DNA from: Verrucomicrobiales bacterium
GTDB taxonomy: Bacteria; Verrucomicrobiota; Verrucomicrobiia; Limisphaerales; JAYPXF01
DNA: 64,000 bases
Assembly: GCA_002715965.1 (NCBI GenBank)
Contig: PBAL01000004.1
Location: 62,001 to 126,000 of the forward strand
Direction of reading: 5' to 3'
The notes under the pieces were generated by a model. It was not told the DNA's origin. It saw nothing but the letters and a program-made list of their open reading frames with translations, and searched no databases. Every line of letters starts with the position of its first letter. Position 1 is the stretch's first letter. The position numbers and the translations under genes are program-made. This document shows, one piece after another, positions 53,977 through 62,448 of the stretch.

Positions 53977-54819
53977 ACGTTTCGTCGCCAGCGGCCGGTC
54001 AAATCCATGCGCGAGGTGTGAACACGCACCGTCAACCGTCAGCACGAGCGACGCCCTGGAGACCAAGTGCATGTAAGCCTTGAGATTCGTACGGCCCACC
54101 AGGTCGATTAGCTTGACCTCCGTGGCGGACTGTATCTCCGCAACGTGTTCCTTCACCCATTCATCTCCCTGCCCCGCAACGACAACCGGTAGTCCGGTGG
54201 CGCTTGCCAGCTCATCGACAACGTGGTGCCAGTCCTCAATCGCCCAACATTTGCGCTTTGTCGAGGCCGCCGGGTTGATCAGCACATACTTGTCCGGCAA
54301 CTCGCATCCGACCCGCCACAAATCGCTGGGTGCCAGCAATCTTGGCGACGTAATGTCTTCGTTATCCGAGCCGGTCAAAAGCCGGCGAAAGAACTCCGTC
54401 CCATACGTATCCGGAAGATGCAGGTAGTCAATCTCATCAAAGATCCACGGATGAAAGGCCCGCCGGTTCGTGAGTTTCCGAAGTCCGAGACGACGCTCAT
54501 CAGCAAGCACACCCCACGCAATGCGCGCCGCCTTGGATCCGCGCTAGAAGCAGAATACACGCTCGAATGACCTGCCCGTCGGATCTGCAATGGCCTCGGT
54601 GTTCGGCATCAGTTCGAGCAATGGATCCAACCCAGGTTTCACGTGAAGATACACCGGCCCGCCTTGTTCCTTCGCCAAGGCTGAAATGCCGGGCTCAAGG
54701 AGGACGGTGTCGCCCAATTGCTTGAGACTGATGATGAGGGATTGCGCGCGAGGACGGCGACCCAAGCGGCGCGGCAACGATCCCAACTGTCGACAAATCC
54801 TGGCTGGCAGTTCCAACAT
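53977..54819 (-). pseudogene. Glycosyltransferase family 9 (heptosyltransferase-like), stop-interrupted and truncated
   Basis: The N-terminal part (AQSLIISLKQLGDTVLLEPG, LHVKPGLDPLLELMPNTEAI) ends at a TAG at 54543-54545. The same frame then continues as a clear GT9 sequence: WGVLADERRLGLRKLTNRRA, LPDKYVLINPAASTKRKCWA, HHVVDELASATGLPVVVAGQ and LTVDGACSHLAHGFDRPLA. The homology stops near 53985, nine bases from the stop codon of the convergent histidine kinase gene, so the C-terminal 60 or so residues (including TLFGPT-type sequence) are lost. GT9 enzymes add heptose or other sugars to LPS cores. The in-frame stop and the truncation both argue for a dead gene. Confidence 0.82.
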
Positions 54820-54927: not shown

Positions 54928-55524
54928 TCAGCGGGCGAGTGAGTCCAGTCCGAGGTTCCCGACGTCGGTATCCGACGGACGCACCCGGAACAGGCTTGAA
55001 GACAGCACGCCGGCAAGAATGCCTATGGCGTGCGCCAGAGGCACGCTACGGAATGTAGCCGTGTCTCCGGCCAGCAGGGGTTGCGGTTGAAGGAATTCCA
55101 TTGTGATCTTGCTGATCAACAGGAAGGCCACGATCAACCAGATCGTCCGATTTGCCCGGTCGATAACGCCGCGGTAAGCCACACTCGCGATGCAGGCTGC
55201 GCCGATGCCGGATAATCCGCAATAGGTGCCCAGACCGGGATCGCCAAGAATCAGCCCAGGGCCGATGGCGATTATTGACACGCCAACCGTGATCACAAAT
55301 TCACGCGACGATCTCTGCTCCAAGAGTGTGCCTGCGACTGCAAATACGAGACAGTTCCAAAACAGGTGCGCGGTGTTGAAGTGCACCAGATGACAGGCGA
55401 ACAGCCTCCACGGTTCGTCATCCATCAGCAAGCGCTCGAAGCGAAGCGCGTCAGCGAGCGGGGTGATCACGTGGACGGCCAACGCCGCTGTGACCATGCC
55501 AATCGTTATCCAAGACGGTCTCAT
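54928..55524 (-). CDS. Rhombosortase (rhomboid-family intramembrane serine protease)
   Basis: A 198-residue membrane protein with about six membrane segments. The pattern WRLFACHLVHFNTAHLFWNC, GLSGIGAACIA (catalytic Ser in GLSG) and AHAIGILAGVL (catalytic His) fits the rhombosortase subfamily, which cleaves proteins bearing GlyGly-CTERM-type tails. It overlaps the rhombotarget lipoprotein gene by 4 bp, with that gene upstream. The last 25 residues are polar. The call rests on the motif order and on the neighbour. Confidence 0.87.
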   Translation of the reverse strand: MRPSWITIGMVTAALAVHVITPLADALRFERLLMDDEPWRLFACHLVHFNTAHLFWNCLVFAVAGTLLEQRSSREFVITVGVSIIAIGPGLILGDPGLGTYCGLSGIGAACIASVAYRGVIDRANRTIWLIVAFLLISKITMEFLQPQPLLAGDTATFRSVPLAHAIGILAGVLSSSLFRVRPSDTDVGNLGLDSLAR

Positions 55525-56363
55525 GACCTGCGGGCTCGATGTCCGCCGATCAGCATAAGCGCAGCAATGGCAATTCCACCCAACGCGCCGAAGTTCCCTC
55601 CACCGATATAGCCCCGTGCGTGGGTGATCTTGTACTTATCTGGCTTCTCCTTCACCCGCATCTTGAATTCGCTCAGCTCGCGATCGAGGTTCGCAATCAT
55701 CTTCGTGTTGGCGCCGGCCATTCCCTTGTCCGAATCCAGTCGCAGGCGTTCGGAGTGATTCACCAACGTCGACCTCGCCTTCACGTGACTCGTCCCCGGC
55801 GCACGAAACAGCAGCTTTCGACTGGGGATGTGAAACACGGCCGTGTCCATCATCGTGCTGGTATCGTTCTTCTCGCCCTGAATGAGAAATGCGCCGACGA
55901 CAGTCAGGTAAGACATCGTCAACCAATCCTCGTCCGTATGCTGGATCTGGTCGTAGGCGACCAGCGCGATGACCTCGACGTCAAACATCGTTCGAAGCTG
56001 CTCCAAATTATCGAAGCCCCCGCCGGGCTTCAGGTAGGTGGTGGGAATGATCTCGATGTTCTTGATGAACGGACGATCCTTGAATTGCTCGGCAACTTTC
56101 TTGAGGAACTCCTCCTTGCGTTTCTCTGAAGGCCCGGAGCCGCGAGAATACTTCTGTTTCTTCTCAGGCACGAAGGCGATGCCGACGTTCAACGGGAGTT
56201 CCATATGGGGAATGCGCGGCTGCTCCGTTCTCGCCTCACGATTCGGGTAAAGAAACTCCGTGACACTGGATCGCTGGTGGTTCTGACGGCCTTGATGAAC
56301 GGACATGCAGCCGCTTCCGAGCAGGGACAAAACCACGACGGTGGAGAGAACAGGTTGCTTCAT
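55521..56363 (-). CDS. Rhombotarget lipoprotein
   Basis: A 280-residue lipoprotein with signal and lipobox (PVLSTVVVLSLLGSGC, Cys near residue 19). The middle is an ordered domain (LPLNVGIAFVPE, FLKKVAEQFKDRPFIKNIEI, AYDQIQHTDEDWLTMSYLTV, MMDTAVFHIPSRKLLFRAPG). The C-terminal 25 residues are a GlyGly-CTERM-like signal: GGGNFGALGG, a hydrophobic stretch, then GGHRARRS. It is the presumed substrate of the rhombosortase next to it, an arrangement already defined in protein family models. An upstream ATG at 56459 is rejected because the signal starts at 56363. Confidence 0.87.
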   Translation of the reverse strand: MKQPVLSTVVVLSLLGSGCMSVHQGRQNHQRSSVTEFLYPNREARTEQPRIPHMELPLNVGIAFVPEKKQKYSRGSGPSEKRKEEFLKKVAEQFKDRPFIKNIEIIPTTYLKPGGGFDNLEQLRTMFDVEVIALVAYDQIQHTDEDWLTMSYLTVVGAFLIQGEKNDTSTMMDTAVFHIPSRKLLFRAPGTSHVKARSTLVNHSERLRLDSDKGMAGANTKMIANLDRELSEFKMRVKEKPDKYKITHARGYIGGGNFGALGGIAIAALMLIGGHRARRS

Positions 56364-56824: not shown

Positions 56825-58342
56825 TTACTCGACGGCTTCGATCTCAGGATTGTCAAAATACTTGGCGGGAATCCTGGCCGCTCTCTCAGGCACACGCCGG
56901 GCACCACGGTAAGACGGCCACTCGATGCGCTGGCTTTCATACCCCGCAAACTCCCAGTCGGGCCAAGTCGGGCTTTCTGCCTGAACCTCCCGATATTTCT
57001 TTCTCAGCTTGTCGGCCATGCGGGCAAAGCGGGTTGGCTCGGAAGACCTCAGGTCGGTGGTCTCGGCGATGTCGTTCTTCAGATCATACAATTCCATCTT
57101 GCCCAAACCGGCAGTCTTGATGGTCTGCTGATCTTCCTGGGCGATGCCGGCGCGATTCTTCGGCCGACCGGCAACCATCTCCGCACTCAACTTCCAGTCA
57201 CCTTCTCGGATGGCCACCTTCTGTGCACCGCTCGCCGCATAAAAGTGCCAATACATCGGCGTCGTCCGCTTGATGGGTTTGCCCTCAAACAAAGGAAGAA
57301 AACTGGCTCCGTCCAGGACGCGATCCTTGGGCGGTTCAATCTTCGCAATTTCACAAAGCGTCGGCAGAAGATCCGTGCCGATGATCGGCGTGTCCGAGAC
57401 CGTTCCCGCCTCGGTCTTGCCGGGCCAACGCATAATGCCCGGCACGCGAATCCCGCCATCGGCAATGTAGCCCTTCTTGTCCCGCAACGGACCGGACGAT
57501 CCGTTGGGATGAAAACTCGTCTTGGCCGGACCATTGTCACTCGTGAAAAAGACCAACGTGTTATCACGCAGTCCCAACTCGTCAACCGACTTCATCAATC
57601 GGCCAAACGCGTCGTCCATCTGCGTGATGTTCCCGTGATGCGGGGCATAACTTGGATCTTCCGATGGATAGAGATTTTCATACTTCGGATCCGTGGCAAT
57701 GGGCTCATGCGGTTCGTGATAGGACACGAAGAGGAAGAACGGTTTCTTCTGATCGCGCAATTCGCGCAACCAATACGCGGCTTCATCCGTGACCAGATGC
57801 GCCGCATAACCCCTAAGCGGGCCAACCGGGATTGCATTGCGCACGAAGTTGTACGGATTGCGATGATTCGGCAGGCAATTGTTCTGCGTGGCAAACCAGT
57901 GATTGAAGCCGTGGTCATTGGGCTGCGGTTGGCCGGTCAGGTTGAAGCGGCCATTCAGGTGCCATTTGCCGCTCAATGCCGTGTCATATCCCGAGTCGCG
58001 CAACAGTGTCGCGATGGTGATCTCGCTCGTCTTCACGTGCATCGGTGAAAGCATCGGGATCCAGTCGTGAATCCCGGCGCGAAACGGTGTGCGCCCGGTC
58101 ATCAAGCCCGTGCGTGACGGCGAACAATTTGGATGCGAGGAATAACAGCTTGTCAACCGAAGGCCCTCCTTTGCGAATGCGTCCAGGTTGGGCGTGTGGA
58201 GTTCTTCGTTTCCGTAACAACGCAGGTCGCCGTATCCGAGATCGTCACAGAGAACGACGATGAAGTTCGGTCGATTGTCTGCGCCCAAGGCAAGGCTCAG
58301 GGTGCAGATCAGGTACAAGAGGGACGAGGCGGACTTCAGCAT
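56825..58342 (-). CDS. Secreted sulfatase
   Basis: A 505-residue protein with a signal peptide (SASSLLYLICTLSLALGA). Metal-binding FIVVLCDDLGYGDLRCYG and the formylglycine motif C73-S-P-S-R-T-G-L-M-T-G mark a Cys-type sulfatase needing a maturase. LSGKWHLNG, FTSDNGPAKTSF and DLLPTLCEIAK are further family segments. It likely acts on sulfated polysaccharides outside the cytoplasm. It is followed by an SMR transporter gene 2 bases later. Confidence 0.95.
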   Translation of the reverse strand: MLKSASSLLYLICTLSLALGADNRPNFIVVLCDDLGYGDLRCYGNEELHTPNLDAFAKEGLRLTSCYSSHPNCSPSRTGLMTGRTPFRAGIHDWIPMLSPMHVKTSEITIATLLRDSGYDTALSGKWHLNGRFNLTGQPQPNDHGFNHWFATQNNCLPNHRNPYNFVRNAIPVGPLRGYAAHLVTDEAAYWLRELRDQKKPFFLFVSYHEPHEPIATDPKYENLYPSEDPSYAPHHGNITQMDDAFGRLMKSVDELGLRDNTLVFFTSDNGPAKTSFHPNGSSGPLRDKKGYIADGGIRVPGIMRWPGKTEAGTVSDTPIIGTDLLPTLCEIAKIEPPKDRVLDGASFLPLFEGKPIKRTTPMYWHFYAASGAQKVAIREGDWKLSAEMVAGRPKNRAGIAQEDQQTIKTAGLGKMELYDLKNDIAETTDLRSSEPTRFARMADKLRKKYREVQAESPTWPDWEFAGYESQRIEWPSYRGARRVPERAARIPAKYFDNPEIEAVE

Positions 58343-60943: not shown

Positions 60944-62329
60944 TCAATTTCCCCAGTTCCCCTGAATCAATTTCTTCAGCCGCGCCATCGTGCCGGCGTG
61001 TTGCTTCACGCCCGCCAAATTGTTCATCTCCAATGGGTCGTTTTCCTGATCGTAAAGTTCGACACCCTGATCACCGCCATGCGCACCCCACTCAACATAA
61101 CGCCAACGCGGTGTGCGAACGCTGTATCCGGGCGCCGTCCGAAACTTGGTCTGGATGAACGCCGGGCGATTCCATTCGGCTTTGGGATTCTTCAGCAGCT
61201 TCACCAGGCTGACGCCGTCTAGATTCTCGGGTCTTGTCAATCCGGCGAGTTCGGCAAGTGTGGGATAGATGTCCACGAACTCCACGATGCGTTTGCAATC
61301 GGACGTTCCCGGTTCGATCCCGGGTGCATCGATGATGAGTGGTGCGCGGGCGGATTCTTCAAAGAGACTGTTCTTTCGCCAAAGACCGTGTTCGCCGAGG
61401 TGGTAGCCATGATCGCCCCACAGAACGACGATCGTGTTGCCGCGCAATCCGAGTCGATCGACTGCGGCCATCAGACGCCCGATCTGGACATCGACGAAGG
61501 AAACACAGGCGTCGTAAGCAAGGATGCATTCGCGCGCTTCGCGTTCCGTCGTTCCGAAATTTGGCCATTGGGACGTGGAGGCCAGGGAGGCCGAAGGCAC
61601 AGTTTCGCGGTAGTTCTCCGGCAGCGGGGATAGGGGCGTTTTATCAATGTCGTAGAAGCCGAAGTATTTCTTGGGCGCGATGTAGGGAATGTGAGGCCGA
61701 TACAAACCCGCAGCGATGAAGAACGGTTCGTCCTTGTGCTCTTCCAGAAGCTTGATGGTTTCATCGACCACCTTGCCATCGGTTTGTTCGGCATCCGTCC
61801 CTTCCGCCTTCAGGAAACACATCTGGTCGGGCAAGGGGAGCTGAGGTGTGTAGACGGTGAGCAGATGTTCCTCGTCCTTGTCGCGGCCCCGCGGATTCAC
61901 CACATGTTGCCAGGATGCGGGATCGTCCGGACCGCTCCTGCCGATGTGGGGCGGATTGGCCTGGTGATAAATCTTCCCGACCCGCGCAACGTAATAGCCG
62001 TTCTGCATGAACAATTGCGGCAGGGTGACGGCGTGTGGAACGAAGTTGCGGAAGAAGGCATGGTTGCTCAGCACGCCGGTCGTGTTCGGACGCAGGCCGG
62101 TCATTACCGAGGTCCGGCTCGGACCGCAGCTCGGGTATTGGCAATAGGCGCGATCAAAACGAACGCCCTGCCGCGCGAGTTTGTCAATGTGCGGTGAGAC
62201 GATGTGGTCGAAGCCGTAACAACCCAGACGCGTGTTAAGATCGTCGATCGCAATAAACAGGACGTTCGGGCGCTTTGCCTGAGTGGAGAGAGCAAGCAGG
62301 CAGAGCAGCAGGAAAACGCGTGGAATCAT
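60944..62329 (-). CDS. Secreted sulfatase (iduronate-2-sulfatase type)
   Basis: A 461-residue protein with a signal peptide (MIPRVFLLLCLLALSTQA). The metal site is PNVLFIAIDDLNTRLGCYG and the formylglycine motif C68-G-P-S-R-T-S-V-M-T-G follows YCQYPSC. The YRPHIPYIAPKKYF, LWGDHGYHLGEHGLWRKNSL and FVDIYPTLAELAGL segments are those of IDS-like sulfatases. Substrates are probably glycosaminoglycan- or fucoidan-like glycans, but this is inference. The start at 62329 is chosen for the signal peptide over 62422. Confidence 0.95.
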   Translation of the reverse strand: MIPRVFLLLCLLALSTQAKRPNVLFIAIDDLNTRLGCYGFDHIVSPHIDKLARQGVRFDRAYCQYPSCGPSRTSVMTGLRPNTTGVLSNHAFFRNFVPHAVTLPQLFMQNGYYVARVGKIYHQANPPHIGRSGPDDPASWQHVVNPRGRDKDEEHLLTVYTPQLPLPDQMCFLKAEGTDAEQTDGKVVDETIKLLEEHKDEPFFIAAGLYRPHIPYIAPKKYFGFYDIDKTPLSPLPENYRETVPSASLASTSQWPNFGTTEREARECILAYDACVSFVDVQIGRLMAAVDRLGLRGNTIVVLWGDHGYHLGEHGLWRKNSLFEESARAPLIIDAPGIEPGTSDCKRIVEFVDIYPTLAELAGLTRPENLDGVSLVKLLKNPKAEWNRPAFIQTKFRTAPGYSVRTPRWRYVEWGAHGGDQGVELYDQENDPLEMNNLAGVKQHAGTMARLKKLIQGNWGN

Positions 62330-62382
62330 GGGAAGGATGTTTCTGGAAGTGGGTGGAGATGCAAGCCAGCAATGCGGAAGTT

Positions 62383-62448
62383 GTAGCAGCGAGCGTGAGC
62401 GAGCAGATACACCGCAGCCCAATTCTGCTCGCTCACGCTCGCTGCTAC
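62383..62448. repeat. Perfect 25-bp inverted repeat between a sulfatase gene and moxR
   Basis: GTAGCAGCGAGCGTGAGCGA with five more bases (62383-62407) is reverse-complemented exactly at 62424-62448, with a 16-base loop. The two genes are divergent, so it is not an ordinary terminator. It looks like a REP/ERIC-type palindrome. Confidence 0.75.

Follow-up and report, generated by a model that had tools for sequence, protein, structure and literature searches.

On the minus strand of the window, that is the whole stretch of 64,000 nucleotides analysed here, two genes follow each other directly. The first (55521..56363) codes for a rhombotarget lipoprotein of 280 aa; it starts with an ATG, preceded by a GGAG. 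The second (54928..55524) codes for a rhombosortase of 198 aa, a rhomboid-family intramembrane serine protease. Both are minus-strand reading frames and, as a previous sequence-only reading of this stretch had described, they overlap by 4 bp: the stop codon of the lipoprotein gene and the start codon of the protease gene share an ATGA at 55521..55524. Judged from this arrangement, the two genes are likely to be translationally coupled. If opened at a GTG, the lipoprotein frame reaches up to 56459; since the lipobox fits the ATG start, this extension is superfluous. Just downstream of the rhombosortase gene, at 53990-54819 (-), lies a glycosyltransferase family 9 (heptosyltransferase-like) gene with an in-frame stop near 54544-54546, from which it appears to be a broken gene or an assembly error. 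Two sulfatase-family genes are found nearby (56825-58342 and 60944-62422 (-)).

In hmmscan against NCBIfam the protease reached 103.2 bits with the rhombosortase equivalog model TIGR03902, for which the curated cut-off is 84, and it matches Pfam Rhomboid PF01694 as well. The GLSG and AHAIG motifs reported before are both there, at residues 103–106 and 164–168, and hold the rhomboid catalytic Ser/His dyad (Ser105, His165). AHAIG corresponds to the AHxxG motif and HLFWN (H53-N57) to HxxxN. The lipoprotein matches TIGR04179 at twice the cut-off (308.6 against 150 bits) and over its full length, profile positions 2–257 of 259 being aligned with residues 17–276 of 280; no difference from the family was found. 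Thus, both proteins pass the family models against which the sequence-only reading had proposed to score them.

The lipoprotein begins with a signal peptide (MKQPVLSTVVVLSLLGSGC, 56307..56363, -) which ends in LLGSGC, and the lipidation cysteine, Cys19, is invariant across an alignment of 66 family members. At the other end, residues 251–280 (55524..55613, -) form a GlyGly-CTERM-like tail, GYIGGGNFGALGGIAIAALMLIGGHRARRS, which could be aligned with 39 tails of the family. The C-terminus reads GYIGGGNFGALGG-IAIAALMLIGG-HRARRS, so that sequence and family alignment agree on a tripartite tail of Gly-rich motif, hydrophobic helix and basic end. Both anchor signals are conserved: of 94 TIGR04179-type sequences, 90 showed a lipobox and 89 a Gly pair ahead of the helix; behind it, every one has basic residues. 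The sequence failing most of these checks (L062) is cut off by a contig end. The generic GlyGly-CTERM model TIGR03501 gave no match anywhere in the genome at E<=10, not to the lipoprotein tail either; the tail is slightly divergent from the generic form. According to PMC5300114, TIGR04179 is a full-length family with a model of its own whose members end in a variant GlyGly-CTERM signal, and for this reason the lipoprotein is assigned to TIGR04179 and not to TIGR03501. Records of the family span Verrucomicrobiota, Planctomycetota, Nitrospirota, Desulfuromonadales-type bacteria and Proteobacteria. Pfam yielded nothing coherent for the lipoprotein or over the 66 family members, and a search of PDB sequences with the lipoprotein profile gave nothing significant. 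Vibrio cholerae VC1485 was considered as a studied homologue and set aside; the literature describes it as a protein of unknown function, and we take it to be an unrelated DUF3466 protein.

The genome to which the window belongs (6.08 Mb in 101 contigs, 92.7% complete) contains exactly one TIGR04179 protein and one TIGR03902 protein above the cut-offs, besides three further rhomboids at 47, 32 and 27 bits. When the window's 55 non-overlapping reading frames of 100 aa or more were screened by a mechanical rule for a C-terminus of Gly pair, hydrophobic stretch and basic residues, the lipoprotein alone fitted, which bears out the earlier claim that the window has no other GlyGly-CTERM protein. 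Being the sole such C-terminus among these frames, and with both proteins passing dedicated NCBIfam cut-offs, the pair is beyond chance. A genome-wide search for further tails of this type, as had also been proposed, was carried out by profile searches. Since TIGR03501 misses even the known tail, two tail models were built: A3 on 40 tails taken from lipoprotein family members, and A5 on 16 taken from metalloprotease and VIT/VWA targets. With A3 the lipoprotein tail came up at E 3e-4, and there was no other match below E 1.5; with A5 there was none below E 0.05. A5 did not list the lipoprotein's own tail and is therefore a narrow model. Weak tail matches on contigs C58, C44 and C92 are not C-terminal tails, and a second weak A5 match, on C78 (E 1.55), has a stop codon within it. 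TIGR03867 was negative in this genome; such genome-wide negatives with TIGR03501 and TIGR03867 are uninformative alone, because TIGR03501 misses the known tail, too. With A3 and A5, no tail besides that of the lipoprotein was found. From these searches of a 92.7%-complete genome, this looks like a rhombosortase with a single target, that is, a dedicated pair.

This is a genuine pair, and it has been well conserved. In a sample of 388 Verrucomicrobiota genomes, TIGR04179 was above its cut-off in 14, and in all 14 the lipoprotein gene is followed by a rhomboid matching the rhombosortase described here. TIGR03902 was above its cut-off in 38 of the 388, including every one of the 14 lipoprotein genomes, against 1.4 expected if the two were independent and kinship is disregarded. 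Within the order to which the genome belongs, 17 out of 196 genomes have TIGR04179, and the pair was present at nine out of nine loci read. A scan of named genomes showed 181 places encoding a relative, of which 80 were kept; 78 of these were informative and 2 unjudgeable. At 46 of the 78 the lipoprotein gene lies directly before a rhombosortase gene (45 scored, plus L079 with an over-long reading frame). The remaining 32, without an adjacent rhombosortase, come chiefly from gammaproteobacteria, in several of which one rhombosortase serves many targets (PMC3237569), plus two Opitutaceae; adjacency is therefore not required for the lipoprotein. At these two Opitutaceae loci (L094 and L095) there is a lipoprotein gene with the tail, yet no rhomboid-like sequence within 4 kb. 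No other convincing conserved neighbour was found within 4 kb on either side of the 80 loci. Lipoprotein and rhombosortase have also diverged together: for 37 adjacent pairs, the two distance matrices are correlated with a Mantel r of 0.70, a value reached in none of 2000 permutations. This correlation shows shared descent of both genes, by itself not interaction. Summing over family models, gene overlap, single copies, the lack of any other tail and the conservation of the pair, the reading as a rhombosortase with its own target lipoprotein is supported.

Some Opitutaceae-like genomes have two or three rhombosortases above the TIGR03902 cut-off. We read 20 regions (L132-L151) from the genomes G331, G122, G088, G373, G060, G143, G018, G045, G358, G182, G275, G155, G346, G361, G091, G114 and G239. 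In 16 of the 20 regions a target gene is adjacent or one gene away, ten times coding for a metalloprotease whose tail is G-rich and of the APSLWF type, and six times for a VIT/VWA-type protein. In Pfam, four of these targets were confirmed as matrixin M10 and three as VIT/VWA; the rest were classed by eye according to their N- and C-terminal sequences. In L132, L134, L137 and L141, rhombosortase-type genes above the cut-off have no recognisable GlyGly-CTERM gene adjoining. In two of the ten metalloprotease regions (L138:3059-4849 and L139:3567-4879) the single target gene is directly followed by a tandem of two rhombosortases, of which the second belongs to a different branch and has no visible target. 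A quick rhombosortase tree sorts by type of target, with SH-aLRT support of 99% for the VIT group and 100% for the metalloprotease group, the latter including two target-less members; the same quick tree has 7 changes of target label, compared to 23.9 in shuffles. Six genomes (G122, G155, G182, G275, G331 and G358) hold both the lipoprotein pair and a metalloprotease pair.

What the lipoprotein might do is suggested by its predicted fold. AlphaFold2, run on the 66-sequence alignment, gave a mean pLDDT of 86.9 for the full length and of 82.4 for the domain alone. In the model, the mature part (residues 28–245, 55629..56282, -) is an alpha/beta domain of the order strand-helix-strand-helix-strand, to which a long hairpin and a helix of 40 residues are added, and the tail forms a separate helix (260–279). 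Foldseek against the PDB returned PelC, LptE, FlgT, HpaA, GNA1162, XCC0632 and CsgG for this model. The mature domain alone gave much the same list with lower E-values, down to 2.4e-5, and 40 matches reached E<=0.001. These matches are weak, the TM-score by target being at most 0.58 (at most 0.53 for the mature domain alone), at an rmsd of about 6–15 Å and an identity of about 10%. In predicted domain order and Foldseek matches, the lipoprotein bears a weak resemblance to the solved structures of PelC, CsgG, LptE, GNA1162 and HpaA, and it is unlike them in sequence, at the level of both Pfam and PDB, and in the low TM-score. To our knowledge none of the five has a GlyGly-CTERM tail. The comparison weakly suggests that the mature lipoprotein belongs with other envelope lipoproteins in one broad fold class, from which we infer a possible role as accessory subunit of an outer-membrane complex.

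Taken together, we propose the following course of events, which as a whole (dedicated pair, export, tail cleavage, release and envelope role) we consider quite probable. The lipoprotein would be exported by Sec and receive a lipid on Cys19, while the hydrophobic helix of its tail would hold the C-terminus in the inner membrane, its basic residues lying on the cytoplasmic side. The rhombosortase, translated together with the lipoprotein, would then cut at or near the Gly-rich stretch before the helix, so that the protein comes free of the segment spanning the membrane. The glycine exposed by the cut may receive a glycerophosphoethanolamine lipid, on the pattern of Vibrio cholerae VesB. Once mature, the protein would go to the outer membrane or the surface, where its PelC/CsgG/LptE-like domain would most likely serve an envelope or export complex in an accessory role. 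By analogy to VesB, anchoring at both ends until cleavage, as the sequence-only reading had suggested, is a fair inference, and going by the Vibrio precedent the protein may be anchored at both ends afterwards as well; if true, a lipid at both ends of one protein would be an unusual double anchor. For the way to the outer membrane, a Lol route and a T2SS- or pilus-like route appear equally possible, the latter because GspD- and GspE-type genes lie close together on contigs C23 and C68 of this genome. A 3597-residue frame on another contig (C79:85132-95550) matches the N-terminal part of GspD, the secretin model, many times over, which gives it the look of a series of tandem N-domain repeats.

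Alternatively, the rhombosortase may remove the tail by simple hydrolysis, releasing the protein from the inner membrane with a free C-terminus that receives no lipid; Lol would then bring it to the outer membrane on the strength of the N-terminal lipid. This departs from our proposal in the last chemical step only, and we give it a serious chance, somewhat short of even. The N-terminal lipid already provides membrane anchorage, and the +2 residue after the cysteine is a Met. Asp at this position is the enterobacterial Lol-avoidance signal, which is absent here. In the model put forward for VesB in 2018, moreover, either water or ethanolamine may resolve the acyl-enzyme (PMC6219818). Against hydrolysis speaks that the one characterised rhombosortase yields VesB modified with GroPEtn (PMC6219818), and that the lipoprotein family has kept the Gly-rich signature. 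The most specific version of our proposal, a mature lipoprotein with diacylglyceryl-Cys at one terminus and glycerophosphoethanolamine lipid on Gly at the other, serving as an outer-membrane export or assembly subunit and being the sole client of the protease, is tentative and, in all its parts at once, rather improbable.

Two further explanations concern the pairing itself. The rhombosortase could have unseen targets elsewhere in the genome, as do those of several Gammaproteobacteria with many targets per enzyme (PMC3237569). A second target could be missing because the assembly is incomplete, and the failure of TIGR03501 on the known tail points in the same direction. Neither the lipoprotein-tail nor the metalloprotease/VIT-tail model, however, gave any other C-terminal match, and adjacency goes along with a single target in the survey of Haft & Varghese (PMC3237569), so we regard additional targets as unlikely. 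Still less credible is a permanent anchor, where the tail stays in place, the rhomboid encoded next to it has another substrate and the two genes are paired only because they are co-regulated. In the literature found, cleavage has been shown for no member of TIGR04179, which leaves room for this explanation; yet different phyla have conserved the Gly-rich-helix-basic tail, the lipoprotein occurs and diverges together with the rhombosortase, and elsewhere rhombosortase neighbours of unrelated families bear the same type of tail. Our preferred reading thus stays that of a dedicated pair with cleavage of the tail by the rhombosortase.

A two-gene system with a single target offers a simple natural setting for testing the action of a rhombosortase on a protein. 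TIGR04179 is a widespread family, and the interest lies in the job of the lipoprotein and in the genomes with several pairs. In the latter, most of the rhombosortases read have their own neighbouring target, and comparing paralogues within one cell would map target specificity. We found no paper on several rhombosortase/target pairs in Opitutaceae; in the study by Haft & Varghese, only Cupriavidus metallidurans CH34 is known to have two rhombosortases, each beside a target (PMC3237569). What is added here are these multi-rhombosortase Opitutaceae-like genomes and the predicted PelC/CsgG/LptE/HpaA/GNA1162-like fold.

The gene pair itself is of a kind already described, as both adjacent single-target pairs and the variant tail of TIGR04179 have been published (PMC3237569, PMC5300114). 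In 2011, Haft & Varghese counted 21 genomes in which a single rhombosortase goes with a single target; in 16 of them no more than one gene separates the two, and the adjacent pairs listed include that of Opitutus terrae PB90-1 (Table 3 in PMC3237569). The novelty implied by the sequence-only reading is smaller by this. Their single-target pairs share with ours the adjacent genes, the one rhombosortase, the one target and, once, the phylum; their text makes no mention of lipoproteins, and there is no other difference that matters (PMC3237569). The best studied comparison is Vibrio cholerae RssP/VesB, which likewise has a rhomboid-type rhombosortase and a tripartite C-terminal tail (PMC6219818, PMC13393428). 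There, VesB is cleaved at the second glycine, the new end bears glycerophosphoethanolamine, and surface location depends on both the tail and the T2SS (PMC6219818). A 2026 study showed that the tail can be transferred as a signal for RssP and is enough to bring about RssP-dependent membrane association (PMC13393428). Unlike the lipoprotein described here, VesB is a protease without an N-terminal lipid, is one of six rhombosortase targets and is exported by the T2SS.
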